NCBI RefSeq assembly: GCF_900184685.1
Contig: NZ_FXXL01000005.1
Location: forward strand, 62,001-126,000
Length of the DNA: 64,000 bases
Direction of reading: 5' to 3'
From: Butyricimonas sp. Marseille-P3923
GTDB taxonomy: Bacteria > Bacteroidota > Bacteroidia > Bacteroidales > Marinifilaceae
Shown piece by piece: positions 47,687 to 62,304 of this stretch. The position numbers were made by a program, and so were the translations under genes. The notes under the pieces were generated by a model. That model ran no database searches. It was given only the letters and a program-made list of their open reading frames with translations, and had not been told where the DNA came from. The number at the start of each line of letters is the position of its first letter. Position 1 is the stretch's first letter.

Positions 47687-48095
47687 ACCTTTATAACTAA
47701 TTGTACTTATGATGTTTACAATCAAATATTATAGTTTGCATTCTGTTTGGTTTAACTGGCGGTTTAACTCAAAGCTAAATCAAGAAGGATTAATACTATT
47801 AATGAACTCACTCTTATTTTATACTCAAATATAAGCAACATATAGCTTATATACAAGCAACTTACCACTAAATTATGGTGGTTGGAATATGATTTTTATA
47901 CGCATACTTTCTGTATTAATTGGTAATGCAATAGGAATCAAATTTTATTCATATATCTAATTGAAACACGTAAGTTGGTGTAAAATTATCAACAACCATA
48001 TACAATTCAATTTTTTCAAATTTTCCACCACGATATAAAAAGGGATGACAAACCGAAGTCTATCATCCCTTCACACCATACCTAGCACACGCTAA
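47687..48095. other. Intergenic region at the left end of element A
   Basis: No gene seen. It holds the first copy of the element A palindrome (47,975-48,030) and AT-rich sequence; an attachment site may lie here. Confidence 0.4.
47975..48030. repeat. Element A palindrome, copy a
   Basis: TTGGTGTAAAATTAT on the left, CATATAC in the middle, AAATTTTCCACCA on the right. Lies downstream of the DUF4595 gene. Confidence 0.6.
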
Positions 48096-48851
48096 CTATT
48101 CTTTGTATGTAACTGTTGTCGTAGATTCTAATTTCTTAACGCTTCTCTCGTCATATGTTTTGATTGTTGTAACATAACCGTTTTTGTCGAAAGTATATTC
48201 ATAAGTATATGTTTCATTCCCCTCTTTCATTGATGCAATTAAATTCTTTGATTTAACCCCAAAATAACTTGTTTCCATGAAATCATATTCCCATACTTGG
48301 ATTAACTGCCAATTAAAATCATAGTTTGATTTATTTTCGTAATCCGTATAAGTATAAGTTCTTGTGCCATAACATTCCAAAGATGTGATGTTCCCATTTA
48401 ACCATTTGCATGAAAACTTACTTCCTGTTGTACTAATAAGCTGGTTATTCTCGGTATAATCAATACTTTCGTATTCCTCTGCTCCGACGCCAATAGCTTT
48501 AGTTACCAATTCTTTATCATTCAGTTCACATTCAAAAACACGTGATTCATCCCAATCTTCATCATTTGTGTCCCATGTAGCAACAAGCTTATTACCTTCT
48601 TTCTTAAATCTCGTTGTTATCACACGCCCGTCATCCTCTCCACCTTTATAAGTTTCCACAACTTTAGTCATCTTTCCTTCTGAATCATATTCAAAAGTAG
48701 TTGTACAAGTTTCTCCGTCACCGTAATCATCGATGAGTTTACTAACTAGCTTCTGTTTTGTAGTTGATTTTTCATCGTCTTTTTCGTCATCATCTGAACA
48801 AGCTACAAATACCGTAGCAAGTAACATCATCAATAAATAAATCTTTTTCAT
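48096..48851 (-). CDS. DUF4595-like lipoprotein
   Basis: A 251-residue lipoprotein (FVACSDDD, Cys18) rich in short beta strands of the form TTFEYDSEGKMTKV and YEYTFDKNGYVTTI, typical of DUF4595, a family of Bacteroides surface lipoproteins with repeated beta hairpins. Function unknown. It sits inside the left part of element A but could be a chromosomal gene if the element boundary is further right. Confidence 0.78.
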   Translation of the reverse strand: MKKIYLLMMLLATVFVACSDDDEKDDEKSTTKQKLVSKLIDDYGDGETCTTTFEYDSEGKMTKVVETYKGGEDDGRVITTRFKKEGNKLVATWDTNDEDWDESRVFECELNDKELVTKAIGVGAEEYESIDYTENNQLISTTGSKFSCKWLNGNITSLECYGTRTYTYTDYENKSNYDFNWQLIQVWEYDFMETSYFGVKSKNLIASMKEGNETYTYEYTFDKNGYVTTIKTYDERSVKKLESTTTVTYKE

Positions 48852-48937
48852 TTTAATCGTAATTTATCTTTTACCCAAGATTCCCAGAATGGTAAGTTAT
48901 TATAAATAAAGAAGCATGGGAACTTACTAGATTATCT

Positions 48938-49078
48938 ATCAGGAGGTATCGCCAAACACCTACAGGAAAATAAACAGTCATCCCATGCTAAACCATGTAT
49001 ATAGAGTTATATATACGGCAAGCATAGCATTTGTATCCTGCTTATCCCTTCCTGTAAAAATTTGGCGATTTTCCTGAT
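48938..49078. repeat. Long inverted repeat, 30-bp arms
   Basis: ATCAGGAGGTATCGCCAAAC at 48,938 pairs with GTTTGGCGAT-type sequence ending at 49,078 (ATTTGGCGATTTTCCTGAT); arms continue through CTACAGGAA / TTCCTGTA. Just outside and inside, GCATGGGA (48,914-48,921) and TCCCATGC (48,981-48,988) are also complementary. The 399-base gap 48,852-49,250 contains no gene. Confidence 0.6.
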
Positions 49079-49250
49079 AAGGATAAAGCTAAATGCTTCT
49101 ATTTTACTAATATGTCTGTAACCCAGATGTTACTCTGGATAACAATACAAAGATAGATAAATATTAACATCCTACAAACGCTTTCAGGGATGACTGTAAT
49201 GCAAAATTAGACTAATAGCTAGAATAAAAAGAATATATTACTAACGGTTT

Positions 49251-50306
49251 TCACTCTATAAACCATTTATAGGTGTTATCACCGTGTAAAGCTCTATCTA
49301 TCCCTTCTGTTAATTGCGTGGCGTTTAATGACCTATCGAGGAAATTATCTATATAAGAAGATTTATTCGCACCCGTAAGCATATTATAGAATTTCCATAA
49401 ATTTATTTCATTCTCTCCATGCTCCCTCTTGAAATTGTCATCGTTGTAATACGCCTTCGCCACCATGTTAATCTGGCTATCCGTCAATTCCATGTATGGT
49501 AAATGTTTCTTCTCTCTGGCAGGTAAACATTGATACAGCCTACTTTTACCCAAGAATTGTGCGAATTGATGTTCAGTGAGGTAAGAACCTGTAAAGCTCT
49601 TCATCAATCGTAAATGCTTGTCCGCATCATACTGTTGGAATAACTTCATAACACCTCTAAATAAATCATGGTAACTCATCGCTCTTAAATCAGTCTGGAA
49701 ACCATCAGTAAAGGTACACAGGTTACAACATACCTTGTTCTTGAACCCAATAGCCACGCTAAACCTTTCTGATGTCTTCTTTGAATAGAGGTTCTCCCTG
49801 TTATACGCTCTCACTCCCGTGATACATAGATTAATCCTGTTACCGTTTATAGATTCATAAATAGTTGGAATCTCAAATGCAAACGCCATTCTTTCATAAT
49901 AGATGGTCTTGTCACTTTCCAGTAATTCTGCCACTGGTTTATGTATCGCCTCTGGAATCCTACCTTTTATAACGTGGCTAACCATTATATCAGGTTCATC
50001 TATACTTTCCCCTCTAAACAGTTCACTAGCCACCTTGTGCACCGTTTCAATAAATGCTGGATGGGATATTGTCATCTCGTTATCCTTGCTGAACACTGGC
50101 ACGATACAATCATTCTTTAAATGTAGCATATCTATGGGCGAAGTGTTAGCCTCTATAAAATGTTTCCTCCTTTTGTCTTTTTTAATTGGTTCATTTACCA
50201 CTTCACAAGGAGTGTAGGTAGGTTCTTCCTTTTTTGTATCATTACTGCCAAATAAAACTGGCAACAATCCTTCATTCTGACTTGGAATTAATATTGACGT
50301 GTTCAT
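49251..50306 (-). CDS. DUF3871-family protein of mobile elements
   Basis: A 351-residue cytoplasmic protein. Features matching DUF3871 are IEANTSPIDMLHLKNDCIVPVFSKDNE, seen here as the N-terminal signature, then HPAFIETV and LCITGVRAYNRENLYSKK. The family is found on Bacteroidetes plasmids and integrative elements; some resemble DUF932-type anti-restriction or replication proteins, but the role is unproven. Two copies of the element palindrome (b and c) lie upstream, so it may be co-regulated with the other element genes. Confidence 0.75.
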   Translation of the reverse strand: MNTSILIPSQNEGLLPVLFGSNDTKKEEPTYTPCEVVNEPIKKDKRRKHFIEANTSPIDMLHLKNDCIVPVFSKDNEMTISHPAFIETVHKVASELFRGESIDEPDIMVSHVIKGRIPEAIHKPVAELLESDKTIYYERMAFAFEIPTIYESINGNRINLCITGVRAYNRENLYSKKTSERFSVAIGFKNKVCCNLCTFTDGFQTDLRAMSYHDLFRGVMKLFQQYDADKHLRLMKSFTGSYLTEHQFAQFLGKSRLYQCLPAREKKHLPYMELTDSQINMVAKAYYNDDNFKREHGENEINLWKFYNMLTGANKSSYIDNFLDRSLNATQLTEGIDRALHGDNTYKWFIE

Positions 50307-50326
50307 AATCTAGTCTATTTAACGGT

Positions 50327-50380
50327 GGTGGAAATATTTAAATTTTCAGTTTATATATACAATTCATGAATTCTCCACCA
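50327..50380. repeat. Element A palindrome, copy b
   Basis: GGTGGAAATATTTAAATTTT, centre TATATATAC, right end TTCTCCACCA. Upstream of the DUF3871 gene. Confidence 0.65.
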
Positions 50381-50491
50381 ACCTTGATTTATAATGTTCA
50401 TTATCACTTTTACTTGTTTTATTTATTATTCATCTTTTAGCCAGTTAAAAAATTGAACTGGAAATGTGTTTAGAGTTTACTCTCTATCGGT

Positions 50492-50548
50492 GGTGAGAAT
50501 TATTGTCCTTACTAGTAATATATACCAATCCAGACAAAAATTCACCAA
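50492..50548. repeat. Element A palindrome, copy c
   Basis: GGTGAGAATTATT, centre AATATATACC, right end AAAAATTCACCAA. Between the DUF3871 and JAB genes. Confidence 0.6.
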
Positions 50549-50557
50549 CCTAAATTT

Positions 50558-51010
50558 TCATATCTTACCGTTAGCTGAATAACTGTAATACCCCTCTTCA
50601 TAGTAAAGAACGTAATCCAGTAACTCTACATCTATACATGAAAGTGCAATCTTTACCTGTTGTACCAGTTCATCATCCTGTTTAGTTGGTTCAATATCAC
50701 CAGAAGGTTGATTTATACAAACTATCACACTTTTACAATTAGAGAGTGCTGCCAGTTGCACTATAAACCTAATATCCGTGATGTTGTAAGATAACGCACC
50801 TTCACTCACGGTAGATATTCCCAACACTTGATTCCTACCATTTAACAGGATAACTCTAGTTGAGATATGGTGTTCGATGGTATCTTTAAATGGAGAAACC
50901 AGTAACTCGTGGACGTCTTTAGCGGTTATTATTTTATACCTTTTAGAAGGCTTGGTATTATTCCTGTACACCAGTTCCACTACTGGTACTTTCATTAATT
51001 CTTCATTCAT
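50558..51010 (-). CDS. RadC-like JAB-domain protein with degenerate metal site
   Basis: A 150-residue protein matching the JAB half of RadC/YeeS-type proteins common on mobile elements (VILLNGRNQVLGISTVSEG, then SVIVCINQPSGDIEPTKQDD). The normal H(S/N)HPSG...D metal site reads INQPSG at residues 99-104, so both histidines are lost; Asp112 remains. It is probably not an active metalloprotease. It lies between DUF3871 and an unknown gene on the same strand. Confidence 0.8.
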   Translation of the reverse strand: MNEELMKVPVVELVYRNNTKPSKRYKIITAKDVHELLVSPFKDTIEHHISTRVILLNGRNQVLGISTVSEGALSYNITDIRFIVQLAALSNCKSVIVCINQPSGDIEPTKQDDELVQQVKIALSCIDVELLDYVLYYEEGYYSYSANGKI

Positions 51011-51245
51011 GATATTGTTTTACTTGATTTTTAATTTGAATACGTTAATGGTAATGGAATTTAGGGAGTTGTAAGTTTATCAGGTTTGGCAATGGAGAGG
51101 AAAGATTCTTGTTTATACTGCCTGTTTAGAAAGGTGATACTTCCTTCACTCTGGTATAACAATATCTTTCCCCTTCCCACTGCTCTCTCTGTCCCTGTTC
51201 CTTCTCCACTAAAGGATTATTTTAGTAGAATAATGCTTTTACAAA

Positions 51246-51270
51246 AAAAAGAAGTAGAGATTACTCTCTA
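51246..51270 (-). terminator. Rho-independent terminator overlapping a stop codon
   Basis: On the minus strand GTAGAG-AGTAAT-CTCTAC is followed by TTCTTTTTTTT. The TAG stop of the upstream unknown gene lies in the stem. Confidence 0.75.
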
Positions 51271-51738
51271 CTCTTCATCAAACAGTATGGCGAATTTCCA
51301 TACAGTTAGCGTGTACTCGTTCCCGTTGTAACTGGCAGGCGTTTCCATGCTACCACAGCAAATAATAGTTTGCCCGTCTAGGATAGAAAACAAATCCTCG
51401 TAACTGGTATTTACTGCCAGAGGGTAAATGTATTGTAGCCTGTCTTTATACTGTTCCTCTATAACAGGGTCACACGGGACGTCATCGGGTGTTATCCCTG
51501 TTTGCTTGGAACCTTTCACCATGTTACGGATTCTAATATCTATCCTTTCATCCCCTTTCATGCAGGAGAGGGAAATACTTGTTGGATCTTCACCCTTGAA
51601 TCCAATAACTTTTAGAATATCACCCACTTTTGGAGGTGCTGGTAACGTGACCAGTTTGCCCGCCAGTTTGGATTTACTAATGTCTGAAAAACATTTGGGC
51701 ATGGTAACCTTGTTCACTTCAAAATCTTTCTTTAACAT
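51268..51738 (-). CDS. Unknown element A protein
   Basis: A 156-residue cytoplasmic protein that I do not recognise. It is beta-rich (KLVTLPAPPKVGDILKVIGF; ISLSCMKGDERIDIRIRNMV) with a late WKFAILF strand. No catalytic motif or membrane segment. Minus-strand, with a terminator at its stop codon. Possibly a replication or regulatory accessory of the element; this is only from location. Confidence 0.6.
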   Translation of the reverse strand: MLKKDFEVNKVTMPKCFSDISKSKLAGKLVTLPAPPKVGDILKVIGFKGEDPTSISLSCMKGDERIDIRIRNMVKGSKQTGITPDDVPCDPVIEEQYKDRLQYIYPLAVNTSYEDLFSILDGQTIICCGSMETPASYNGNEYTLTVWKFAILFDEE

Positions 51739-51921
51739 GATAGTTTGATTTTAATTAATTGATTTTTTTCCAGAGATGGGTGGGGGATGTAAATGGTACA
51801 CTACCCTAGCGTGGAACACACTTTATATATAATGCCAACCTGAAATTAGAGGGGAGGGGGTGTTTTATAAGGATTCTCTATTTTAACCACTCTAATTCTC
51901 CCTGTATTTAGAATATATTCT

Positions 51922-51929
51922 TAACTTTG
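51922..51929 (+). promoter_or_regulatory. Bacteroidetes -7 promoter element for the 58-residue gene
   Basis: TAACTTTG, 27 bases before the ATG at 51957. Confidence 0.55.
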
Positions 51930-51956
51930 TATGGTTATATCAATCAAAGGAGAAGC

Positions 51957-52133
51957 ATGGAGATACGTTTTGAAACTAAAGCGGAAAGTCAAGCCAGACG
52001 AGAGAGGGAGGCACTGGAAAGAACCCCCAACGAGAGATTTATATTCTTTTTGCGTCTGGTCGCCGAAATCGGCAAGTTTCAAACTTTGAAGGAGAGAACA
52101 AGTAACAACTTTATTCTTGAACGGAAAAAATAA
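51957..52133 (+). CDS. Small protein resembling AbiEii-partner proteins
   Basis: A 58-residue basic protein with strong translation signal AAAGGAG six bases before the ATG at 51957, plus a good promoter. The pattern ERTPNERFIFFLRLV and a C-terminal NFILERKK resembles small proteins encoded just upstream of AbiEii/nucleotidyltransferase toxins in Bacteroidetes, but no such toxin follows; the next gene is Fic. It may be an orphan antitoxin-like gene. Confidence 0.6.
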   Translation: MEIRFETKAESQARREREALERTPNERFIFFLRLVAEIGKFQTLKERTSNNFILERKK

Positions 52134-52200
52134 ACCTTAATTTCTTTTGACTGGGCAACTCTCTCCTTGTAGGCATTGGTCTTTATCAATGAAGTAAGGG

Positions 52201-52256
52201 TTGGTGGAAAATTTTTAAAATGTATATACCGACCAGAATTTTATATTTTCCCACCA
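52201..52256. repeat. Element A palindrome, copy d
   Basis: TTGGTGGAAAATTTTTAAAA, centre TGTATATACC, right end TATTTTCCCACCA. Directly upstream of the Fic promoter. Confidence 0.7.
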
Positions 52257-52278
52257 GATATAAACAATGATAATTTCT

Positions 52279-52286
52279 TACCTTTG
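52279..52286 (+). promoter_or_regulatory. Bacteroidetes -7 promoter element for the element A fic-like gene
   Basis: TACCTTTG, 23 bases before the ATG at 52310. Confidence 0.6.
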
Positions 52287-52309
52287 TAATCAACTAAAAA
52301 TATGGCAAC

Positions 52310-53071
52310 ATGAATAGTAAGTTGGTTGATTTATTAAGAGAGGTAGATTCATTGAAAGTGCGGTTATCTTCCTTACGTCCTTTACCTGTCGAGGCATTAA
52401 AGAAAATTCAGGATGCTTTAGATATCGAGTACACTTACGAGAGTAACCGTATAGAAGGGAACACGCTTACCCTGCAGGAAACGGCACTTGTTGTCAATGA
52501 AGGAATCACTATTTCTGGTAAATCCATGCGTGAACACTTGGAGGCAATCAACCATGCGGAAGCTATTGACTATATAAAGGAGGTTGCCAAACAGGATATT
52601 GAAATAAGTCAAAGAACTATCAAGGAGATTCATGCACTCGTGTTACATGGCATAGATAGGGAGAACGCTGGAAGTTACAGAACCGTACCCGTGATGATTT
52701 CGGGTAGCACTCATGTACCGCCTCAACCTTATTTGTTGGAGAAGCTAATGGAAGATTTCATGCTGACATTTCAACGCATGGAAAAAGAAAACGTTCATCC
52801 AGTTATTATTGCCGCTTACTTGCATGATGAACTGGTGAGGATACATCCGTTTATAGATGGCAACGGGCGTACTTCTCGACTTCTGATGAACCTCTACCTG
52901 TTGCAAAAAGGTTATACCATTGTTACCCTGAAAAGTGATAACGACATGAAGTTACGTTATTATAAAGCTTTGGAGTCTTCTCACACGGAACAACAACATG
53001 ATGATTTTTACTTGTTGGTTGCCGAAGCTGAAAAAGCATCTCTAGAGAGGTATATCTCTATTCTAGGATAA
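52310..53071 (+). CDS. Fic-family adenylyltransferase, self-inhibited (class II) type
   Basis: A 253-residue protein. The core motif HPFIDGNGRTSR is at residues 179-190, complete for AMP transfer. An N-terminal inhibitory helix motif SNRIEGN (45-51) matches class II Fic proteins, where the Glu blocks ATP gamma-phosphate until released. It lacks the C-terminal winged helix of larger Fic proteins. Single-gene unit with its own promoter and an element palindrome upstream. Target unknown; a second Fic gene outside the element (43,755-44,888) is a different class. Confidence 0.88.
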   Translation: MNSKLVDLLREVDSLKVRLSSLRPLPVEALKKIQDALDIEYTYESNRIEGNTLTLQETALVVNEGITISGKSMREHLEAINHAEAIDYIKEVAKQDIEISQRTIKEIHALVLHGIDRENAGSYRTVPVMISGSTHVPPQPYLLEKLMEDFMLTFQRMEKENVHPVIIAAYLHDELVRIHPFIDGNGRTSRLLMNLYLLQKGYTIVTLKSDNDMKLRYYKALESSHTEQQHDDFYLLVAEAEKASLERYISILG

Positions 53072-53326
53072 AAGTAATTTTATGAACCTATAAATGGTGA
53101 ATTGGAATAGAAAGTTTAGAGATATTCGTGAGTTCAATTTCCTTGTGTGGTAAAACTGGAAATAGAATGTCAAATCAATATGTTATCATAGATATAAATA
53201 TTTGATATTCTGATATATTTACTTTGTCGTACCCAATTCAATAAGTATTTTTGCATATGTAAATGATTGGTCTGATGTTCTTGTCTGAACTAGATACTCT
53301 TTTGTTTGTTAGAAAAATTTATTCCT

Positions 53327-53506
53327 ATGAAATTACGTAAAAAAGGAAAAAACTCCAATTCAGAATGGTTTGGTGTAGAACATTATCGAATTTTCCATGA
53401 AATGGATTTATTCAGGTATGTAAACATGGAGAGATTAAAAATGTTATATCCTGAAATTTTTGGAAGTTCCAAACCGAAGCTTCTCAAGAAAAGACAGCAC
53501 AACTAA
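53327..53506 (+). CDS. Small unknown protein
   Basis: A 59-residue protein from the ATG at 53327 (MKLRKKGKNSNSEWFG). Basic at both ends with an aromatic centre (VEHYRIFHEMDLFRYVN). I do not recognise it. A clear terminator follows 8 bases after its stop, which supports a real transcription unit. Confidence 0.5.
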   Translation: MKLRKKGKNSNSEWFGVEHYRIFHEMDLFRYVNMERLKMLYPEIFGSSKPKLLKKRQHN

Positions 53507-53514
53507 ATGATTGA

Positions 53515-53552
53515 AGCCAGTACCTCATATGTCCTTAGGGTGCTGGCTTTTT
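53515..53552 (+). terminator. Rho-independent terminator
   Basis: AGCCAGTACC (53,515-53,524) pairs with GGTGCTGGCT (53,539-53,548), followed by T-rich sequence. Confidence 0.8.
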
Positions 53553-53557
53553 ATTTG

Positions 53558-53613
53558 TTGGTGGAAAATTTATGGAATGTATATAGAGAATAAAATTTTG
53601 TATTTTTCCACCA
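53558..53613. repeat. Element A palindrome, copy e
   Basis: TTGGTGGAAAATTTATGGAA, centre TGTATATAG, right end TATTTTTCCACCA. Upstream of the DUF2971 pair. Confidence 0.7.
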
Positions 53614-53635
53614 TGTTTTATCGAAAATCTATTTG

Positions 53636-53643
53636 TAATTTTG
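53636..53643 (+). promoter_or_regulatory. Bacteroidetes -7 promoter element for the DUF2971 pair
   Basis: TAATTTTG, 33 bases before the ATG at 53677. Confidence 0.45.
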
Positions 53644-53676
53644 TATAGATAATAAAGTTTATAAAATCATAATTGT

Positions 53677-54417
53677 ATGTACCAAATTCATCCTTGTTTC
53701 GACACTCCTGCTGATAATACAATGATATGGAGATATATGAATTTTACTAAATTTGTTTCTTTGTTAGAAACTAAAAAATTATATCTTTCCCGTTCTGATA
53801 AATTTGAAGATCCATTTGAAGGTTCATGGCCTAAACTAAATGTGGAGCATCGATTGGATGGACTTCCTTTACCACAAGAACAAATAATGAAAATAAATAA
53901 ACTTTTGTCTAGTTCATCACAAAAGATGCTTGAACATATTTATATAAATTGTTGGCATATGAATACATGTGAATCTGATGCGATGTGGCGGATATATGTA
54001 CATGGTAATGAAGGTGTGGCAATCCAAACTACGATTAATCAATTAAAAGAAAGTATAACGGATAAAACAAATGTTTATATTGGAAGAGTAAAATATATAG
54101 ATTATAAACATGATTTTATACCTATATATAATCAATCAAATATATTTGATCCTTTTCTTTACAAAAGAAATAGTTTTTCTCATGAAAATGAAGTTCGTGT
54201 TGTAGCACTTGGAAATATTGAACGCTTGGCAAATGGTGAAGGTGAAGAATTACTGGGAGTTAATATAGATATTGAGCCTTCTGTTTTAATCCAGAATATT
54301 TATGTAGCACCATTTGCTGCCTCATGGTTCCATAATTTAGTACAATCAATTTTAGTAAAATATGGATATAATATAGGAGTAAATCAATCAGAAATCTTGG
54401 GAAAACCGATGTATTAA
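53677..54417 (+). CDS. DUF2971-family protein, first of a pair
   Basis: A 246-residue cytoplasmic protein with the DUF2971 pattern: WRYMNFTKFVSLLETKKLY, SRSDKFEDPFEGS and CWHMNTCESDAMWRIY, then a later EVRVVAL. DUF2971 proteins are widespread in defence islands and mobile elements; the activity is not established, though the conserved Arg/Asp/Trp positions suggest a nucleotide-related enzyme. Very AT-rich codons, unlike the chromosome. A second family member follows after 22 bases. Confidence 0.82.
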   Translation: MYQIHPCFDTPADNTMIWRYMNFTKFVSLLETKKLYLSRSDKFEDPFEGSWPKLNVEHRLDGLPLPQEQIMKINKLLSSSSQKMLEHIYINCWHMNTCESDAMWRIYVHGNEGVAIQTTINQLKESITDKTNVYIGRVKYIDYKHDFIPIYNQSNIFDPFLYKRNSFSHENEVRVVALGNIERLANGEGEELLGVNIDIEPSVLIQNIYVAPFAASWFHNLVQSILVKYGYNIGVNQSEILGKPMY

Positions 54418-54439
54418 TTTAAAGTTAGAAAGTTGTAAA

Positions 54440-55249
54440 ATGAAATTGTATCATTATACTTCAATCGAAAATTTGGCTCTTATTTTAAAAAATAAGACAA
54501 TACGTTTTAATCGACTTGATAGAGTTGATGATATAGAAGAATCTTCTATTTATGAAAAAACGGTTCCAATGGGTAAATACACGTTTGTATCATGTTGGAC
54601 GGATAATGAGGAGGAAAGTATTCCTTTATGGAAGATGTATACTCCACAGATGAAAGGGGTTAGAATTGCAATGGATTATGATATGTTCTTGATGAAGAAA
54701 ATTAATGAGGGCATTTATAAGACACCAATAGGACCCATTGAAATTAAAGGAGAGCTTGAAACATTATGCTCAATAGAGGAACAATTTAATGACAAATATG
54801 CTATTTTATTTAATGGGAAAAATGATCCTAATTTCTTTCGCAAAATAGAGTATGTTGATATGTGCGAAAAGGCAGGATTACAAGCAATACAGTTTAAATT
54901 GGTTGAAGGTAAGGTTAATCTGGATGTGGATACGTCTAAAGTTGGGAAATATAAAAATAAAAGATGGGCATTTCAAGAGGAAGTACGTTTTGCTTTGACG
55001 ATTGTCCCTATGGTAATCAATCCTATAACTCACAATTTTGAAATAATTCAAGCAATACAAAGTGGTTTAGAATTACCGATGATGTATTATGATTTGAATT
55101 TGTCTGAGAGAGCATTGGAATGTATGGAGATAACGGTAAGTCCTTGTTGTAATGAGGCGGATAGAATAATTATAGAATCTTTGGTTAGGGCAATGAATCC
55201 TACGGCAAAGATTCAATCAAGTGGATTATCGGGATATATACGTAAATAA
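54440..55249 (+). CDS. DUF2971-family protein, second of a pair
   Basis: A 269-residue protein of the same family: LYHYTSIENLALILKNKTI, FNRLDRVDDIEE and SCWTDNEEESIPLWKMY, with EEVRFAL late. It differs strongly from its neighbour, so the pair is not a recent duplicate and could form a two-part system. Shared operon with one promoter before the first gene and a terminator after the second. Confidence 0.82.
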   Translation: MKLYHYTSIENLALILKNKTIRFNRLDRVDDIEESSIYEKTVPMGKYTFVSCWTDNEEESIPLWKMYTPQMKGVRIAMDYDMFLMKKINEGIYKTPIGPIEIKGELETLCSIEEQFNDKYAILFNGKNDPNFFRKIEYVDMCEKAGLQAIQFKLVEGKVNLDVDTSKVGKYKNKRWAFQEEVRFALTIVPMVINPITHNFEIIQAIQSGLELPMMYYDLNLSERALECMEITVSPCCNEADRIIIESLVRAMNPTAKIQSSGLSGYIRK

Positions 55250-55280
55250 AAATAGAAAGACTGAAAATTTACTAGATTGA

Positions 55281-55320
55281 AAGCCAGTATTCCAAGAATA
55301 TATGAGATACTGGCTTTTAT
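55281..55320 (+). terminator. Rho-independent terminator after the DUF2971 pair
   Basis: AGCCAGTAT (55,282-55,290) and ATACTGGCT (55,307-55,315) followed by TTTTATTAT. The stem sequence is nearly the same as in the terminator at 53,515. Confidence 0.8.
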
Positions 55321-55332
55321 TATGTGCTATTA

Positions 55333-55836
55333 TTATTTCTTACTTTCAGCTTCCCAGATTATATTTAAAACCTGTTGAAAGTTGGCAAGTGGTATATGCT
55401 CTATTGATAAAGATTGTCCCGTACTAGTACCCTTTACATGATAGCAGGGGCTATTTTGCTGGTAAGGGTTAAACGTGTCACCACTGAAATTTATTTCCGT
55501 TAGCTCGTACTTGTCGAATCGTATCGAGTTCACGGGGTCGAGTTTATCGTTAAAGAATCCTAGTGTAACCGACCTAGTGTTCATGTAAGTAAAGTTTTGC
55601 CATTTATACATTCCAACTAGAATGAAGTAGGACACGTCTGTCATGTCCCACGTGGTAAGGTTTGATTTTACCACGCATTTTTTTAAGTCTTTACTGATAT
55701 AAATACAATAACATAGAGGGAGGAATGAATCACTGATTGTCATTCTTAACTCTCTAACGGTTTGGAAAAATTCAGCATACTTCATAATCATGTATTGTTT
55801 AAAATTTATACTTGGTGATAAATTTGAAAATTTCAT
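55333..55836 (-). CDS. Unknown element A protein, coupled to the SF2-like gene
   Basis: A 167-residue protein that I do not recognise. Start at 55836 overlaps the upstream stop by ATGA, which supports it, though an ATG 48 bases later is possible. Mixed alpha/beta with several aromatic strands (YFILVGMYKWQNFTY); no catalytic motif. Coupled translation with the SF2-like gene suggests a partner role. Confidence 0.6.
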   Translation of the reverse strand: MKFSNLSPSINFKQYMIMKYAEFFQTVRELRMTISDSFLPLCYCIYISKDLKKCVVKSNLTTWDMTDVSYFILVGMYKWQNFTYMNTRSVTLGFFNDKLDPVNSIRFDKYELTEINFSGDTFNPYQQNSPCYHVKGTSTGQSLSIEHIPLANFQQVLNIIWEAESKK

Positions 55837-55868
55837 TCTCTTGTACCTTTTGCAATTTTTTCCACCAA
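55812..55868. repeat. Element A palindrome, copy f
   Basis: TTGGTGATAAATTTGAAAAT, centre TTGTACC, right end AATTTTTTCCACCAA. It spans the end of the SF2-like gene and the start of the coupled gene, so it is partly coding. Confidence 0.6.
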
Positions 55869-57761
55869 CTCTGGTTTCATGGCGATAAGTTTATACGCCC
55901 CTCCATTGGCGTTGGAAATCTTGAACTCGGGGTAATAATCTTCTATCGTTTTATCGGTTAAAGTGAAATATACTTTCTCTAGTCCAGCCTTTACCCCGTA
56001 CTCTTTAAAAGGAATACCGTGAGCCATGAATATCACTCTTAGCCTCTCTCGAACGGTTTTACTCGGTATATAATCACCATTATTCATTTCTTGCTCGAAC
56101 GCCTTGAATACATCATGTACCACGTGGGGAGAGAAACGTTGCTCGTTAGCCATTTGTTCATGGAATGTTTTCATCATTTTATCTATTTCTCCTTTCTTGT
56201 AGTTGGCTTGTTCAATGGCTGCTTTGCCGATCGTGTTGTAGGCATCTATTATATATCCAGTATCGTTGAATTCTTTCAACATTTCAATGTCGGGAATGAT
56301 GTCGTGGTCGGGATTTTGTAATACCATTTGTCGTAACCTGTCGAGGTGACTGACAACTTTTTTCCAGAGTTGTTTCTTGTTAGCCTTTCTCATGGCTATT
56401 TTATCATCTTCTCCAATTCTCTTGGTGTCATCGATGAAATTAATATTGAAATGTCCCGAGCCCTCGTACGCCTCGTGCAAGCTTCGGGCGGAGGTGTAAT
56501 ATCCCTTCACTCTTTCCTCGTTGTAAAGGTTATCAACGGAGAAGTAGTTTATCTTTCCTTCCTCGTCCAGTAATTCTTTATACTTGATTTCTTCCAAGTC
56601 TTTCAAAATGGCTTTCTTTTCCACCTCTGTCGTGGCTTCTTCTAAACGTAGGATTAGATGCTGGTGGGTGATTTCAAATTGTCGTGTCATGGCGGTAACC
56701 TCTTCCTCTGTCATCACTTCCATTTCATCGTTAATGTTAGATATAACGGTTAGTGAGTTGTAAGTATTCCCGTCCTCATGCTTATTTCTAAACCTTCCCT
56801 GTGCTTGTATCACCTCTGTGTACGGGTCAACAATAGAGTGTGGGATACTACAATCTGACAATATTAAAATATCAGGCTTCTTGATGGTATAAATATCAAC
56901 GGCAGAAAAGAACCGACAAGTGAAGAAATTAATCTTGGCTAGCGGTAAATCCAGATTCTCGTGGCTGTTCTTGAAATTGCACTCTTTCAACTTCTTCACG
57001 CTCTCGTTAGAACAAAACACTTTATAATCTTCCTCTTTTATCAAGTTATTATTTAAAAGGTAGGTTATCACTTTATTTATTCCCGTTGTGGAATTGAAGA
57101 AGACGCATAGACATTGGCTGTTCTGGATTAACTCTCTTAACTGTCCCGTCATGGTGCGATTGAAACTTCTCGTTACTATTAATGTCATGTTCTTCCTGTA
57201 ATCGAAATTTGGAACCACTTTCCAAATCTTGAAATCCTGTCTTTCCAGTTCGGGGTGACGCATTTCTAGTGGAGTGGCAGATACCATCGCTTTCCTCTCG
57301 AACTTGAAGAAGTCATTTATCGGTTGTGATATTCTGGGACGGTAATCAACGTCTTGAGTTATCTTCTCGCACTCGTCAAACAGGCAGAAGAACTCTTTAT
57401 AGATGTCTATTCCCAGTTCCCGTGCCGCTAGCCTGATTTTCTCGAATCCCTCTGGTGTGGTTAATAGCTTTTTGTTGGTGATAGAGTTGTTATTCAAGAA
57501 CTTCTTTACCAGTGTTTTATTGCATAAAGCATACACCGCTAAAGAGTTGTCAACCTTTTCAGCTTTACCGATAATAACAGGCACGTTTGGCTCTATAATA
57601 ATAGAGGGACGTTTAGCCAGATGTAATTCCCAGTAGGTTGCCCCGATGCCTGTTATAGTTTTGTCAAGTATAACGTTGCTCCCTATCTCTTGAATACCTT
57701 TATTTTTGAACGCTTCTACTAGAGTTTCGTTACTTTCAATCGTGAAATACTCTGTTCTCAT
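55833..57761 (-). CDS. SF2-helicase-like protein with degenerate Walker A
   Basis: A 642-residue cytoplasmic protein. Motif order fits an SF2 helicase: TGIGAT at 37-42 in Walker A position (the Lys is Ala), DECE at 129-132 (motif II), SATP at 161-164 (motif III) and QAQGRFRN at 319-326 (motif VI). The 300 C-terminal residues are helical with no known domain. Long upstream region 57,762-58,276 holds a block of three inverted repeats, so it may be the element's replication or origin-binding protein. The loss of the P-loop Lys is notable, or the family uses another lysine. Confidence 0.65.
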   Translation of the reverse strand: MRTEYFTIESNETLVEAFKNKGIQEIGSNVILDKTITGIGATYWELHLAKRPSIIIEPNVPVIIGKAEKVDNSLAVYALCNKTLVKKFLNNNSITNKKLLTTPEGFEKIRLAARELGIDIYKEFFCLFDECEKITQDVDYRPRISQPINDFFKFERKAMVSATPLEMRHPELERQDFKIWKVVPNFDYRKNMTLIVTRSFNRTMTGQLRELIQNSQCLCVFFNSTTGINKVITYLLNNNLIKEEDYKVFCSNESVKKLKECNFKNSHENLDLPLAKINFFTCRFFSAVDIYTIKKPDILILSDCSIPHSIVDPYTEVIQAQGRFRNKHEDGNTYNSLTVISNINDEMEVMTEEEVTAMTRQFEITHQHLILRLEEATTEVEKKAILKDLEEIKYKELLDEEGKINYFSVDNLYNEERVKGYYTSARSLHEAYEGSGHFNINFIDDTKRIGEDDKIAMRKANKKQLWKKVVSHLDRLRQMVLQNPDHDIIPDIEMLKEFNDTGYIIDAYNTIGKAAIEQANYKKGEIDKMMKTFHEQMANEQRFSPHVVHDVFKAFEQEMNNGDYIPSKTVRERLRVIFMAHGIPFKEYGVKAGLEKVYFTLTDKTIEDYYPEFKISNANGGAYKLIAMKPELVEKIAKGTRE

Positions 57762-57796
57762 GATATTATCTGTTTACAAGTTACAGGAATCCCGTC

Positions 57797-57852
57797 TGGT
57801 GGTAATTTTGAAAATTTCATGTCGTGTATGGTTTTCAAAAATTTTCCACCAA
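57797..57852. repeat. Element A palindrome, copy g
   Basis: TGGTGGTAATTTTGAAAATT, centre GTGTATGG, right end AAATTTTCCACCA. Upstream of the SF2-like gene; its left half is close to copy f. Confidence 0.65.
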
Positions 57853-58003
57853 CCATGAAAAGGGGACTAGAGCGTTATCTCCAGTTACTTTCCAGATTCC
57901 AACCTTTGCCTTCAACACTGCTGAAGACTTGCAGACAATCTAATGAGGTGCGCACCGTAAAGATTGATTTGTCACAAAAGTAGAGTTCAGGGAGAAGGTG
58001 TGC

Positions 58004-58250
58004 CATAAAGAATAATAGCCATTTCGAACGCTATTCTTTAGACTTTCCATTTCCTTCAAGAACTCTATTTTCACGTGGCAAACTAACTTCAAATCGAGAG
58101 GTTAAACCATAAAGAATGGAGGTCATTTAGAGGTCTATTCTTTAGATGTTCTCTCTTTATCAATTCGTTCGCCAAAACAAAAATGCGGCAAAAAAGGGAG
58201 GTAGGTTATAAAGAAATGTAGCCAGTTCAAGGGGTATTCTTTAGCTGGCT
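58004..58250. repeat. Three spaced inverted repeats (possible origin or control region)
   Basis: Three units each have ATAAAGAAT on the left and TATTCTTTA about 27 bases later: 58,006/58,033, 58,109/58,135 and 58,208/58,235. Units are about 100 bases apart, and each follows a purine-rich GAGAGGT-like stretch. The region 57,762-58,276 (515 bases) has no gene. An iteron-type origin, operator set or transcript hairpins are the options. Confidence 0.7.
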
Positions 58251-58276
58251 ATGAATCAAGCATGTACGTGGTAATA

Positions 58277-59275
58277 CTACCAGAAATAAAGTTTGGAAGG
58301 ATTGTTAGGGGAGGTTCTATAATTACCTTGTGAGGCTGGTATCCATTCTGGTTTGTAACCATGCTTGTCCAGATAAGCTATTTTAGAGTTTATGTAGTTC
58401 TCGTCGATTTGTTTATCTTCATCCTTTACCAGTCCTATCAATTCCATGTAATCGAGGATAAATTTATATATATCACTTTTTCTCTCCATGCCAGAACGGT
58501 TTACCAGTAAACGGTATATCCCTACCATTACAAGATTCTGTGCTGGGTTATCTGCCTTACGCCCTTTCTTCGGTGAATAGACTTCTTTCAATTCTTCTTC
58601 CGCTTCTTCAATGGAATTTACTCCCAAGTATACATGAAGGTAAGAATCTAGGAGATTGGTAAACCAGCTCTCCATGGCGTTGTTAATGATAATCTTTTCT
58701 TGATTGTTACTTAAAGTGATTGATTTATCTCTCTTCCTTTTATCCCTTTCAAGGAACAGGTAGAGTTGTAACATTTCAGGTCTTACTTGCTGGAAATAGG
58801 TATCCATGTTATACGTTTCTTCCAGTAATTCAGGGTCGAGGATAGGTTTGAACGCTTCATGCTTCTTGTAGATAATGGCTAGCATCCAGAGAGTGTGAAA
58901 TATGGCATCCCTGTTTTTATCTGGTAATTTACTTGTCAACTCCTCTATTTTCTTTTTCAATCCATCATCTTCAAAAAGGATTCCTTTTATGTTGTCTGTC
59001 ATGTAAGCCAAGGTATCAACCACTTTTATCATCTTTTGCTCTCTGGGAGCGTAACGTTGCCAATCAAACGGGTTATCGCTTGTTGCCAGTTCATCTAGCG
59101 TGTTAGGAACTTCTATCATGTATTTATCCTCTACCTTCCCCATGAATCCCCACGTGGCTGGATACATTCTTTCTATTTCTGGATATAACATTGTCCTGTT
59201 ATAGGCGAAATACTCTACTAGAAATGGTTCTACTTGCAGTAAGGTTGCGACTGGATAGATAATATTGTTTGCCAT
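58277..59275 (-). CDS. Unknown element A protein
   Basis: A 332-residue helical cytoplasmic protein, unrecognised. It opens with YPVATLLQVEPFLVEYFAY, has a lysine-rich PKKGRKAD in the C-terminal third and many charged helices. Copy h of the palindrome is 61 bases upstream of its start; the triple inverted repeat block begins right after its stop. Between the SF2-like gene and the integrase, so replication, transfer or packaging are possible roles. Confidence 0.65.
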   Translation of the reverse strand: MANNIIYPVATLLQVEPFLVEYFAYNRTMLYPEIERMYPATWGFMGKVEDKYMIEVPNTLDELATSDNPFDWQRYAPREQKMIKVVDTLAYMTDNIKGILFEDDGLKKKIEELTSKLPDKNRDAIFHTLWMLAIIYKKHEAFKPILDPELLEETYNMDTYFQQVRPEMLQLYLFLERDKRKRDKSITLSNNQEKIIINNAMESWFTNLLDSYLHVYLGVNSIEEAEEELKEVYSPKKGRKADNPAQNLVMVGIYRLLVNRSGMERKSDIYKFILDYMELIGLVKDEDKQIDENYINSKIAYLDKHGYKPEWIPASQGNYRTSPNNPSKLYFW

Positions 59276-59305
59276 GGTATGTATACTTTAAACAGGGTTA
59301 AAGGT

Positions 59306-59345
59306 AAAAAAAATACCACCTCCCCAGAAAGAGGAAGTGGTATAA
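59306..59345 (-). terminator. Rho-independent terminator after the integrase fragment
   Basis: On the minus strand ACCACTTCCTC and GGGAGGTGGT form a stem followed by seven T. Confidence 0.7.
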
Positions 59346-59393
59346 AATTTCAAAGTTTTAATCTCTATATGGAAGTGAAAATATTTCCACCAA
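59336..59393. repeat. Element A palindrome, copy h
   Basis: AAGTGGTATAAAATTTCAAA, centre CTATATGG, right end AATATTTCCACCAA. It ends two bases before the integrase stop codon. Confidence 0.6.
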
Positions 59394-59394
59394 A

Positions 59395-59565
59395 TCAAAG
59401 TAAATTACTCATGGCTTCATCTATCTGCTCATTCTCGAAACTATCCAGATAAATTTGAGTTGTTTTCAAATCGGTATGTCCCAAGGATTCAGAGATTATT
59501 CCTACATTTACACCAGAGCGTCGTAATACCGTGGCAAATGAATGGCGGGCGACATAAGTAATATT
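59395..59565 (-). pseudogene. Tyrosine recombinase (integrase) of element A, C-terminal fragment
   Basis: Read on the minus strand, the last 55 codons encode a phage-type integrase end: VARHSFATVLRRSG with the box II Arg, SLGHTDLKTTQIYL with His and the nucleophile Tyr, and a terminal EQIDEAMSNLL. Similarity stops near 59,562-59,565 with stop codons beyond. The missing 300 or so N-terminal residues were removed by arrival of element B, so element A can no longer excise with its own enzyme unless the rest lies outside the window. Confidence 0.85.
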
Positions 59566-59843
59566 TAGAAATGCAATAAAAAACAGAATGACGATAATTA
59601 AACGTAAAACGTTTATAATTAAGCATTTTGCGAGAATTGCAGAACAGACAGACCTGCAAAAGAAAACAAAATATTGCGACGTTTCAGTTACCAGACTGTT
59701 AGCCGCCTGTTTCGGAAACGACGGCAGGTAACCGAATTTTTACCGATAAGAACAAAGCGGATTTGTATTCACTGTTTCTCAATGTTTTGCATGCCAAAGG
59801 ACGCTTTTCAAAGGAGTATTTTTACAACCTAAAAAAGAGCGTT

Positions 59844-61073
59844 ATGAAAGTGGAAAAATTCAAGGTGCTGCTCTACCTGAAAAAGAGCGAGCCGGACAAG
59901 ACCGGCAAAGCCCCGATCATGGGACGGATCACCCTCAACCGCACGATGGCGCAGTTCAGCTGCAAGCTCTCCTGCACCCCCGGGCTGTGGAACGCGCGTG
60001 AGAGCCGGCTGAACGGCAAGAGCCGGGAAGCGGTGGAGACCAATGAAAAAATAGAAAGACTGCTGCTTGCCGTACACTCGGCCTTCAATTCCCTCATGGA
60101 AAGAAAAAGGGATTTCGATGCCGCCGCGGTCAGGGACATGTTCCAGGGCAATGCGGGCATGCAGATGACCCTGCTCAAACTTCTCGACCGGCATAACGGG
60201 GAAATGAAGGCCCGTGTCGGTGTGGACCGTGCGCCCACCACACTCTCGACCTACCTCTTCACCTACCGCACGCTTTCCGAATTCATCAAGGCGAAATTCA
60301 AGGTTCCGGACCTTGTCTTCGGGCAGCTCAACGAGCAGTTCATCCGCGACTATCAGGATTTCATCCTTCTGGAAAAGGGATATGCCGTGGACACGCTTCG
60401 CGGCTACCTGGCCATCTTGAAAAAGATCTGCCGCATCGCCTACAAGGAGGGCCACTCGGAGAAATACCATTTCTGCCACTTCAAGCTGCCCAAGCAGAAG
60501 GAGACAACACCGAAAGCACTCAGCCGTGAGAATTTCGAGAAGCTGCGTGATCTGGAGATACCGGAAAAACGCAGGTCACATGTCATCACCCGGGACCTCT
60601 TCCTCTTCGCCTGTTACACCGGCACCGCCTATGCCGATGCGGTAAGCATCACCCGGAAGAACCTCTTCCGGGATGACGAGGGCAGCCTCTGGCTGAAATA
60701 CCAGCGAAAGAAAACCGACTACCTCGGACGTGTCAAGCTGCTTCCGGAAGCCGTCGCGTTGATTGAGAAATACCGGGACGATACCCGCGAGACTCTTTTC
60801 CCGCCGCAGGACTACCACACGCTCAGGGCCAATATGAAATCCCTGCGCCTGATGGCAGGGCTGAGCCAGGACCTTGTCTACCACATGGGACGGCATTCTT
60901 TCGCCTCGCTGGTCACGCTCGAGGAGGGAGTGCCGATAGAGACCATCTGCAAAATGCTGGGACACTCCAACATAAAGACCACCCAGATATACGCGCGCGT
61001 AACCCCGAAGAAGCTGTTCGAGGACATGGACAGGTTCGTCGAGGCAACCCGCGATTTGAAACTTATCCTTTAA
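59844..61073 (+). CDS. Tyrosine recombinase, first of a tandem pair
   Basis: A 409-residue integrase from the ATG at 59844 (MKVEKFKVLLYLKKSEPD). N-terminal arm-type and SAM-like core domains (about 1-200), then the catalytic domain: box I reads CYTGTAYADAV with no Arg at the usual place, as in IntDOT-type enzymes, and box II has H347-R350, H374 and nucleophile Y383. It lies 19 bases before the second recombinase. The two may act together in excision and integration of element B. Confidence 0.9.
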   Translation: MKVEKFKVLLYLKKSEPDKTGKAPIMGRITLNRTMAQFSCKLSCTPGLWNARESRLNGKSREAVETNEKIERLLLAVHSAFNSLMERKRDFDAAAVRDMFQGNAGMQMTLLKLLDRHNGEMKARVGVDRAPTTLSTYLFTYRTLSEFIKAKFKVPDLVFGQLNEQFIRDYQDFILLEKGYAVDTLRGYLAILKKICRIAYKEGHSEKYHFCHFKLPKQKETTPKALSRENFEKLRDLEIPEKRRSHVITRDLFLFACYTGTAYADAVSITRKNLFRDDEGSLWLKYQRKKTDYLGRVKLLPEAVALIEKYRDDTRETLFPPQDYHTLRANMKSLRLMAGLSQDLVYHMGRHSFASLVTLEEGVPIETICKMLGHSNIKTTQIYARVTPKKLFEDMDRFVEATRDLKLIL

Positions 61074-61092
61074 TCCCTAAACAATCATTATC

Positions 61093-62304
61093 ATGCGCAG
61101 TACATTCAAGCTCTTATTCTACATCAACCGTAACAAGGTGAAATCGGACGGCACGACCGCCGTCCTCTGCCGGATCAGCATCGACGGAAAGAAATCGGCA
61201 GTCACGACAGGCGTCTATTGCAAACCCGGGGACTGGGACAGCAAGAAGTGTGAAATCAAAACAGCCAGGGAGAACAACCGCCTTGCCGCCTTCCGCAGCC
61301 GGTTGGAAGAGGCGTACGGGAACCTGCTGAGGAACCAGGGAGTGGTCACGGCCGAACTGCTCAAGACCACCGTGTCAGGCGCCAATTCCGTACCGGAATA
61401 CCTCCTGCAGGCCGGAGAGGTGGAACGCGAACGGCTCAGGGTCCGCTCCAAGGAGATCAACTCCACTTCCACCTACCGCCAGTCGAAGACCACCCAGCTC
61501 AACCTCAGGCAGTTCATCGAATCCCGCGGGATGAAGGACATCGCCTTTTCGGACATCACCGAGGAGTTCGCCGAATCGTTCAAGGTCTTTCTCAAGAAGG
61601 AGCTGGGACACAGGAACGGACACGTGAACCACTGCCTGTGCTGGCTCAACCGGCTCATCTACATCGCCGTGGACCGGGAAATACTAAGAGCCAATCCGAT
61701 AGAGGACGTGGCATACGAGAGGAAAGAAACACCTAAACTAAGGCATATCAGCCGCAGTGAACTGAAGCGGATGATGGAAACCCCGCTGCCCGACCCGATG
61801 ATGGAGCTGGCACGCAGGACGTTCATCTTCTCCTCGCTGACCGGTCTGGCCTACGCGGATACGAGGGCTCTCCATCCCCGTCACATCGGAACGACTTCGG
61901 AAGGAAGAAGGTATATCCGCATCCGCCGCGCCAAAACGGACGTGGAGGCGTTCATCCCGCTGCATCCCATAGCCGGACAGATACTGGAGCTTTACAACAC
62001 CACGGATGACGACAGGCCGGTATTCCCGCTGCCGGTCCGCGACGTCCTCTGGTATGAGGTACATGGAATGGGCGTGGCATTAGGCATGAAAGAGAACCTG
62101 TCCTACCACATGGCCCGGCATTCGTTCGGGACCCTGACACTGACCGCAGGTATTCCGATAGAGAGCATCGCCAGGATGATGGGCCACACGAACATCGACA
62201 GCACGCAGGTCTACGCCCAGGTCACCGACCGGAAGATATCCTCGGACATGAACCGGCTGATGGAAAGAAGAAAGCCCGCGGCCGGCAAGGAAGCCGCAGG
62301 CTAA
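61093..62304 (+). CDS. Tyrosine recombinase, second of a tandem pair
   Basis: A 403-residue integrase (MRSTFKLLFYINRNKVKSDG, a common start in this class). Box I is SLTGLAYADTRAL, again without the usual Arg; box II has H339-R342, H365 and Y374. Sequence differs clearly from the first copy, so the pair is old. An inverted repeat follows its stop. Confidence 0.9.
   Translation: MRSTFKLLFYINRNKVKSDGTTAVLCRISIDGKKSAVTTGVYCKPGDWDSKKCEIKTARENNRLAAFRSRLEEAYGNLLRNQGVVTAELLKTTVSGANSVPEYLLQAGEVERERLRVRSKEINSTSTYRQSKTTQLNLRQFIESRGMKDIAFSDITEEFAESFKVFLKKELGHRNGHVNHCLCWLNRLIYIAVDREILRANPIEDVAYERKETPKLRHISRSELKRMMETPLPDPMMELARRTFIFSSLTGLAYADTRALHPRHIGTTSEGRRYIRIRRAKTDVEAFIPLHPIAGQILELYNTTDDDRPVFPLPVRDVLWYEVHGMGVALGMKENLSYHMARHSFGTLTLTAGIPIESIARMMGHTNIDSTQVYAQVTDRKISSDMNRLMERRKPAAGKEAAG

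Follow-up and report, generated by a model that had tools for sequence, protein, structure and literature searches.

The subject of this report is a 64 000-nucleotide (nt) stretch of DNA from Butyricimonas sp. Marseille-P3923 (contig NZ_FXXL01000005.1, positions 62 001–126 000; the whole stretch is called the window hereafter), in which an island, element A, carries eight copies of a site of 55 or 57 nt with inverted arms. The site family is real, tightly conserved and island-specific. The 55 nt sites may be dispersed operators and roadblocks of one repressor-like DNA-binding protein, a reading to which we assign a probability of roughly one half. One such protein would recognize two inverted TGGTG half-sites, about 50 bp apart from centre to centre, that flank an off-centre TATATA. 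The integrated island would be silenced by this protein, which, bound at the boundaries of gene blocks and at the inward-facing island end, would cover promoters and block read-through; its loss or inactivation would release the whole island. Cargo modules that carry or reuse a site would bring new toxin–antitoxin or defence genes under the same control. Protein binding, repression and the block to read-through are what we infer from the patterns of sequence and placement described below.

Sites in the window

An earlier note on this DNA had described eight copies of a 56 bp palindromic element, and all eight are present where it had put them. The inverted arms are borne out, whereas the plain palindrome is not: the sites have three conserved islands and, measured from TGG to CCA, seven of them span 55 nt and one spans 57 nt. 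In the window 17 places match the 13-mer TGGTGGAAAATTT with at most two mismatches, where 4.8 would be expected; a count of 17 was reached in none of 100 shuffles. A search of the 64 kb for paired arms (summed score of at least 20 of 28) returned seven places, all in element A and all scoring at least 23; 20 mononucleotide shuffles of element A yield 0.2 such places per 13 kb. The 57 nt copy scores under the threshold and was therefore missed. The full arm TGGTGGAAAATTT is exact in only four of the 16 arms, so that of the end sequences which the note took to be shared only TGGTG and CACCA are constant. The TATATA that it had placed at the centre is present, but lies left of the middle and is degenerate in two copies (55813 and 57797). 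Because TATATA is off-centre, each site has a direction.

47976–48030, plus strand: site 1, the terminal site, pointing inward; set about 190 bp in from where the conserved island sequence ends on the left, and facing the tail of a lipoprotein gene.
50326–50380, minus strand: site 2; 17 nt upstream of the DUF3871 gene.
50491–50547, minus strand: site 3 (57 nt), a tandem copy before DUF3871; it follows RadC by 6 nt, and its distance to site 2 is 165 nt.
52202–52256, plus strand: site 4; 51 nt upstream of the Fic gene, with a TAnnTTTG box about 20 nt past the site.
53559–53613, plus strand: site 5, before variable cargo; homology to the related loci L009 and L127 stops at its right edge.
55813–55867, minus strand: site 6, TATATA degenerate; overlaps the 3′ end of the p642 coding sequence and lies about 20 nt upstream of the probable p167 start.
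57797–57851, minus strand: site 7, TATATA degenerate; 34 nt upstream of p642.
59338–59392, minus strand: site 8; between the island integrase remnant and p332, 60 nt upstream of p332.

The statement that most copies lie just upstream of genes is right for five of the eight, which simple open reading frame (ORF) calls place 17–61 nt upstream of a start codon, and for a sixth (55813) if the alternative and preferred start of p167, about 20 nt away, is used. The other two differ: 50491 is the second copy of a tandem pair, 182 nt from DUF3871, and 47976 faces the tail of a convergent gene. The listed p167 frame (55333–55836) starts inside site 6, and inspection by eye suggests an in-frame ATG at 55791 as the likelier start. 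Also by eye, the minus strand has a terminator-like hairpin with a T run (59303–59340) that lies downstream of the integrase remnant and runs into the edge of site 8.

Genomic distribution and related islands

Relatives of the sites were sought with R1, a sequence-only covariance model built from 21 sites, eight of them from the window. Over the 5.3 Mb genome R1 finds 18 strong sites (E < 1e-6), with the next-best place at E 0.22 once opposite-strand readings are set aside. Confinement to element A, as first claimed, holds for the window and not for the genome: of the strong sites, contig C3 has eight, all in the window, C4 has eight in L009 and C2 has two in L029. No copies are strewn at random, all 18 of 18 falling in these three related islands. 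L009 has the same sites in the same order as element A and matches it in four long pieces (about 8.5 kb in total, 89–94% identity). It adjoins tRNA-Met, next to its integrase; the integrase of element A is mostly lost, the homology to L009 running to 59560, inside the integrase. Two tandem tyrosine integrases follow this remnant (window 59565–62304). A tandem integrase pair is also seen in the Bacteroides finegoldii locus L132 (4881–7341), which by eye shares an adjacent stretch (window ~59690, L132 7449).

Islands of this family adjoin tRNA-Met, -Lys, -Pro, -Cys and tmRNA genes, beside their integrases. Counted from the tRNA, L009 is estimated to extend over about 13.5 kb to its far end and L118/L119 over about 22.7 kb. 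A Pfam scan of one island integrase (L112) gives Arm-DNA-bind_5, Phage_int_SAM_5 and Phage_integrase. In 56 genomes of the bacterial family, matches reach E ≤ 0.001 in 14 and E ≤ 1e-6 in 11; at the latter threshold, strong sites are present in all eight genomes that bear DUF3871 and in three of the 48 that do not. In a sample of 393 genomes of the order, 40 pass E 0.01 and only four, all of the same family, are better than E 3.8e-4. A circular 15.5 kb record of B. finegoldii (NZ_OY725960.1, L132) has one clear site (29.8 bits, E 1.2e-8) and encodes relatives of p332 (26%) and DUF3871 (55%). An exclusive link to sets of DUF3871, superfamily 2 (SF2)-like and DUF2971 genes, which had been offered as a check, proves too narrow, as DUF2971 is exchangeable, three strong-site genomes are without a DUF3871 match and some DUF3871 genes are without sites (see below).

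The viral contigs that were searched contain no relatives of p332 or p642; they contain five loci with DUF3871 relatives, where the best site-model score is E 0.13, and 14 viral contigs that fit a loose pattern reach E 0.057 at best. No published description of such sites was found, although coverage of subscription journals was limited and absence from print is therefore not proven.

Site anatomy and sequence constraint

The sites follow a tripartite plan: TGGTG, 16–19 nt, TATATA, about 23 nt, CACCA. Among 78 distinct cores, measured from GG to CC, 29 are 53 nt long, 27 are 55 nt, nine are 56 nt, six are 54 nt, three are 52 nt and four have other lengths. The distance from TATATA to CACC is nearly constant at about 23 nt, while that from GGTG to TATATA varies by about three bases. 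Divergence was measured over 81 pairs in eight ortholog groups of our choosing, only pairs of equal span being compared. It amounts to 4.2% in TGGTG, 3.6% in TATATA and 2.4% in CACCA, compared with 12–19% between these conserved islands and 32–35% in the 60 nt flanks, the last figure being inflated because the comparison was ungapped and some flanks come from different cargo. Terminal sites, which have no gene to start, are under similar constraint in the two groups compared.

Conservation is sequence-specific and independent of arm pairing, save in the 56 nt class of six sites. Pairing between the two arms of a site equals that between shuffled partners in the 53 nt class (P 0.79, 15 distinct sites) and the 55 nt class (P 0.88, 17 distinct sites); overall it is 0.587 against 0.587, with only position 5 correlated (P 0.005). 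Since the arms pair no better than shuffled partners, each fits the consensus on its own, and the dyad looks like two half-sites that each match one consensus, not like a stem.

These results bear directly on the proposal that the sites form hairpins in transcripts or in single-stranded DNA. RNA folding does give z scores under −2 for four of the eight window copies (−2.4 to −5.3), and the six distinct sites of the 56 nt class pair above shuffles (P 0.005). The two large classes show no such excess, compensatory stem changes of the kind expected of a structured RNA leader were not found outside the 56 nt class, an Rfam scan gave no match at the sites up to E 0.5, and sites are present where no transcript start is expected, so that we regard hairpins, which the earlier note had offered as a second possibility, as very improbable. 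Promoters of the Frpo kind, that is single-strand leading-region promoters, were considered in view of RadC and the OB-fold-like p156 and were dropped by reasoning, since a −35-like box at the hairpin base and TATATA near the tip are in the wrong order for outward transcription. The other suggestion of the earlier note, operators of one element-encoded repressor or replication protein, fares better in its operator part, which fits best because the half-sites are sequence-specific, the constraint resembles a footprint and the sites are restricted to one island family.

Placement relative to genes

The model gave 103 matches, of which 87 were carried on; the 16 weakest (E 8.9e-5 or worse) were left out, of which 14 read another match from the opposite strand and two are weak places of their own (in L125 and L127). 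With L038 also set aside, because it overlaps L123, the downstream side of 85 sites faces a gene start in 50 cases, the tail of a convergent gene in 33 and no called gene in two; the tally uses simple ORF calls, some of them doubtful short ORFs, and many orthologous copies, so that 50 of 85 is no enrichment by itself. The roadblock part of the operator reading was added because of these 33 tail-facing sites, together with the terminal sites. The terminal site lies inside the island end, pointing inward, and adjoins a block of about 190 bp common to eight loci.

Gaps from site to start codon are kept gene by gene: 16–17 nt for DUF3871, 15–16 or 32–34 nt for p642, 60 or 94–103 nt for p332, 67–74 nt for HigB, 51–52 nt for Fic (9 nt to our ORF start in L127) and 210–224 nt for an ORF of 60–70 amino acids (c4). 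DUF3871 is preceded by a tandem pair of sites, or a triplet in L118 and L120, at a spacing of 165–168 nt. Insertions like miniature inverted-repeat transposable elements were rejected as the source of the sites, no target duplication being seen by eye and the gaps to genes being kept.

The spacer of 16–19 nt between TGGTG and TATATA is of the kind found in sigma70-type promoters, which raises the question of whether the sites are unusual promoters, with TGGTG as a −35 box and TATATA as a −10 box used by a special sigma factor or with an activator. DUF3871 and p642 would suit this explanation, as they start 15–34 nt past the site with no TAnnTTTG, which we take to be the Bacteroidetes −7 box, between site and start. 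Fic, the DUF2971 pair and HigB, however, have their own TAnnTTTG boxes 20–43 nt past the site, and TATATA is degenerate before p642 and p167. Promoters would also leave the equally constrained right arm, the terminal sites and the 33 tail-facing sites unexplained, and we consider this explanation unlikely.

Cargo modules and homology breakpoints

The modules that lie between sites include MNT–HEPN, HigB–HigA, Fic, ADP-ribosylglycohydrolase, DUF2971 and OLD-like genes. A cargo hotspot at 53614–55713 of the window, corresponding to 11648–13530 of L009, is flanked by DNA of about 94% identity. The cargo that follows site 5 is a pair of DUF2971 genes in element A, an OLD-like ATPase in L009 (its OLD TOPRIM match being just under the Pfam cut-off) and HEPN/MNT in L127; three different cargos thus begin at the same edge of one orthologous site. 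Homology breakpoints were taken from 398 blastn matches (at least 150 nt and at least 75% identity) among 27 loci. Of the distinct noncoding ends, 48 of 284 (16.9%) fall in sites, which make up 10.1% of noncoding bases, a 1.7-fold enrichment with a binomial P of 3e-4 that is to be read with the ends not being fully independent. Against all DNA, L038 again being set aside, the enrichment is about fourfold (51 of 397, or 12.8% against 3.1%). Near sites, most ends are spread from −40 to +70 and show no common crossover point of the kind that a fixed attC position would give. We read these patterns as modules that carry or reuse a site.

The same patterns could be produced if the sites were the recombination sites of a cassette system, serving as boundaries at which modules are swapped by a recombinase or through short homology. 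The toxin–antitoxin and defence modules between sites, the excess of noncoding ends and the common edge of three cargos all speak for this. Against it stand the spread of the breakpoints, an enrichment that is only 1.7-fold over noncoding DNA and based on ends that are not independent, the presence of sites before core genes that are not cargo, and their mixed orientations; in addition, no dedicated recombinase was noticed, though no search aimed at one was made. Such a system is in our judgement rather unlikely. Integron attC sites are imperfect inverted repeats at the boundaries of cassettes, which often hold toxin–antitoxin genes. The present sites resemble them in size, in being imperfect inverted repeats and in lying at cassette boundaries, and differ in that sequence and not pairing is conserved, no crossover is fixed, orientations are mixed and core genes also carry sites. 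Integron-like cassettes were rejected on the ground that breakpoints are enriched but not at one point.

Comparison with known mobile elements

The satellite P4 has a single integrase beside a tRNA gene, and P4-like satellites and other tRNA-integrated islands are, like those described here, small elements with variable anti-phage or similar cargo; unlike P4-like satellites, these islands have no identified satellite hallmark. As expected of dispersed operators, the copies are many and are concentrated in putatively mobile islands: all 18 strong sites in the genome lie in three of them.

Two phage systems offer closer parallels for the operator reading. The SPBRE of the Bacillus prophage SPβ, first found in silico and later shown to be repressor-bound, is the target of the master repressor MrpR, which keeps the element silent, and some SPBRE targets are linked to toxin–antitoxin activity (PMC10516654). 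Like the present sites, SPBRE recurs in several intergenic regions of a single mobile element; its motif is 15 bp, compared with 53–57 nt and three conserved islands here. The stoperators of Cluster A mycobacteriophages are many dispersed repressor sites, most of them outside promoters, and their consensus differs between phages in step with the repressors (PMC6550527). The many dispersed sites, most of them not in promoters in the case of the stoperators, are the shared feature; stoperators are 13 bp long and mostly in one orientation relative to transcription, whereas the sites described here are pairs of inverted half-sites over 53–57 nt. On the most likely reading, the sites form a dispersed operator system whose logic is known from elsewhere, in a form and setting that are new.

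Candidate binders and points against the operator reading

The binder was sought by co-occurrence among the 11 genomes of the family with strong sites. Matches were found in seven for p332, eight for DUF3871, eight for p642 (distant in G010, G015 and G044), six for p156 and seven for a helix-turn-helix (HTH) protein; the p332 and HTH searches used a single-protein query and may miss distant relatives, and some of these genomes are fragmented, where the sites may be island remnants. Each of the five candidates fails this co-occurrence test, which neither supports nor refutes a binder encoded by the element. The integrase is unlikely as a specific binder, because integrases fall to 23–25% identity with that of L009 while the site sequence stays the same. 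The structure model of p332 is poor (pLDDT 58) and gave no structural match at E 0.001.

An island protein such as p332 might instead bind the sites in an architectural role, or in replication or segregation. The occurrence of sites at many boundaries, the island end included, agrees with this, as do the conservation of p332 and the iteron-like repeats downstream of it. The idea is made quite improbable by the matches to p332 in only seven of the 11 strong-site genomes, by p332 relatives in four loci (L034–L037) without model sites and by the gaps to start codons, which are kept.

Several observations weigh against the operator reading. None of the five island proteins is matched in all 11 strong-site genomes. 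The variable span of the sites ill suits a rigid dimer, though the distance from TATATA to CACC stays at about 23 nt. The 33 of 85 sites at convergent gene tails are not explained by a simple promoter–operator, and the mixed orientation (50 start-facing and 33 tail-facing of 85) is unlike that of stoperators. Three of the 14 full-length DUF3871 genes in the family have no listed site nearby on the contig (G000:C2:903424, in the genome of the window itself, G044:C38 and G014:C52). The pairing of the 56 nt class and the folding of four window copies, described above, count on the same side.

Palindromes with other arms

Upstream of p642 relatives, four of 19 loci show a similarly sized palindrome that has other arms around a TATA core, against 0.29 expected from shuffles; the test was set up after three of these had been seen and is not independent. 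The match in L137 overlaps, but differs from, a GGGAGA palindrome there. In L033 a second family of palindromes, built on CCGCAT arms around a TATA-like core, has three strong copies (2350–2413, 6916–6979 and 7050–7112), one of which overlaps a TGGTG-type site. Other arms recur two or three times in each of L132, L037 and L131, less convincingly than in L033. In L136 a palindrome spotted by eye in front of p642 was rejected, shuffles yielding as many, and a first search for inverted 9-mers in L034 and L037 found no site-like repeat family. The other-arm palindromes are suggestive of half-sites that are specific to lineages.

A tentative extension, and one that is more likely wrong than right by a wide margin, would have the sites act both as operators and as joints of cargo exchange, with half-sites re-specified in each island lineage to suit its own cognate binder. 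A toxin–antitoxin or defence module landing between two sites would, if this were true, be silenced and co-induced with the island.

Gene content of element A

Besides the sites, the following features of element A were noted.

47788–47970, strand not assigned: conserved island end block, outside the terminal site; also in L009, L119, L122, L123, L125, L128 and L130.
48096–48851, minus strand: putative lipoprotein, cargo; weak Pfam matches only.
49251–50306, minus strand: DUF3871 protein (351 amino acids); Pfam E 1.9e-145.
50558–51010, minus strand: RadC-like JAB protein; E 2e-22.
51268–51738, minus strand: p156, for which the model suggests an OB fold; the best PDB match, PrgE, is weak (E 0.059).
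52310–53071, plus strand: Fic protein.
53677–55249, plus strand: two DUF2971 genes, exchangeable cargo; PADLOC PDC-S31, the second gene being under the Pfam cut-off.
55833–57761, minus strand: p642, SF2-helicase-like from motifs read by eye; no significant Pfam match.
58277–59275, minus strand: p332, conserved island protein; no fold match.

A relative of p642 in a phage (24.5% identity) is annotated as a DEAD-like helicase. The p642 copy of L118 (5300–7142) is split, its match being interrupted by two TGA codons; further copies in that genome are open. Directly downstream of p332 (window 58000–58250), three iteron-like imperfect palindromes, TATAAAGAAT...ATTCTTTAG, are spaced about 100 nt apart and are kept in L028 (10784–11042) and L032 (9492–9723); they are a candidate origin or p332-binding array.

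Implications

If the operator reading is right, the sites make it possible to recognize by sequence a family of Bacteroidales islands that has been little described and that carries toxin–antitoxin and anti-phage-like cargo. Several of these islands adjoin tRNA or tmRNA genes, and the sites alone could be used to find islands, cargo boundaries and the binder. One protein would then be predicted to control all of the island cargo, and the logic of a repressor with dispersed operators would extend from SPβ and mycobacteriophages to islands of gut Bacteroidota. It would also suggest how exchanged defence cargo may come under control at once.

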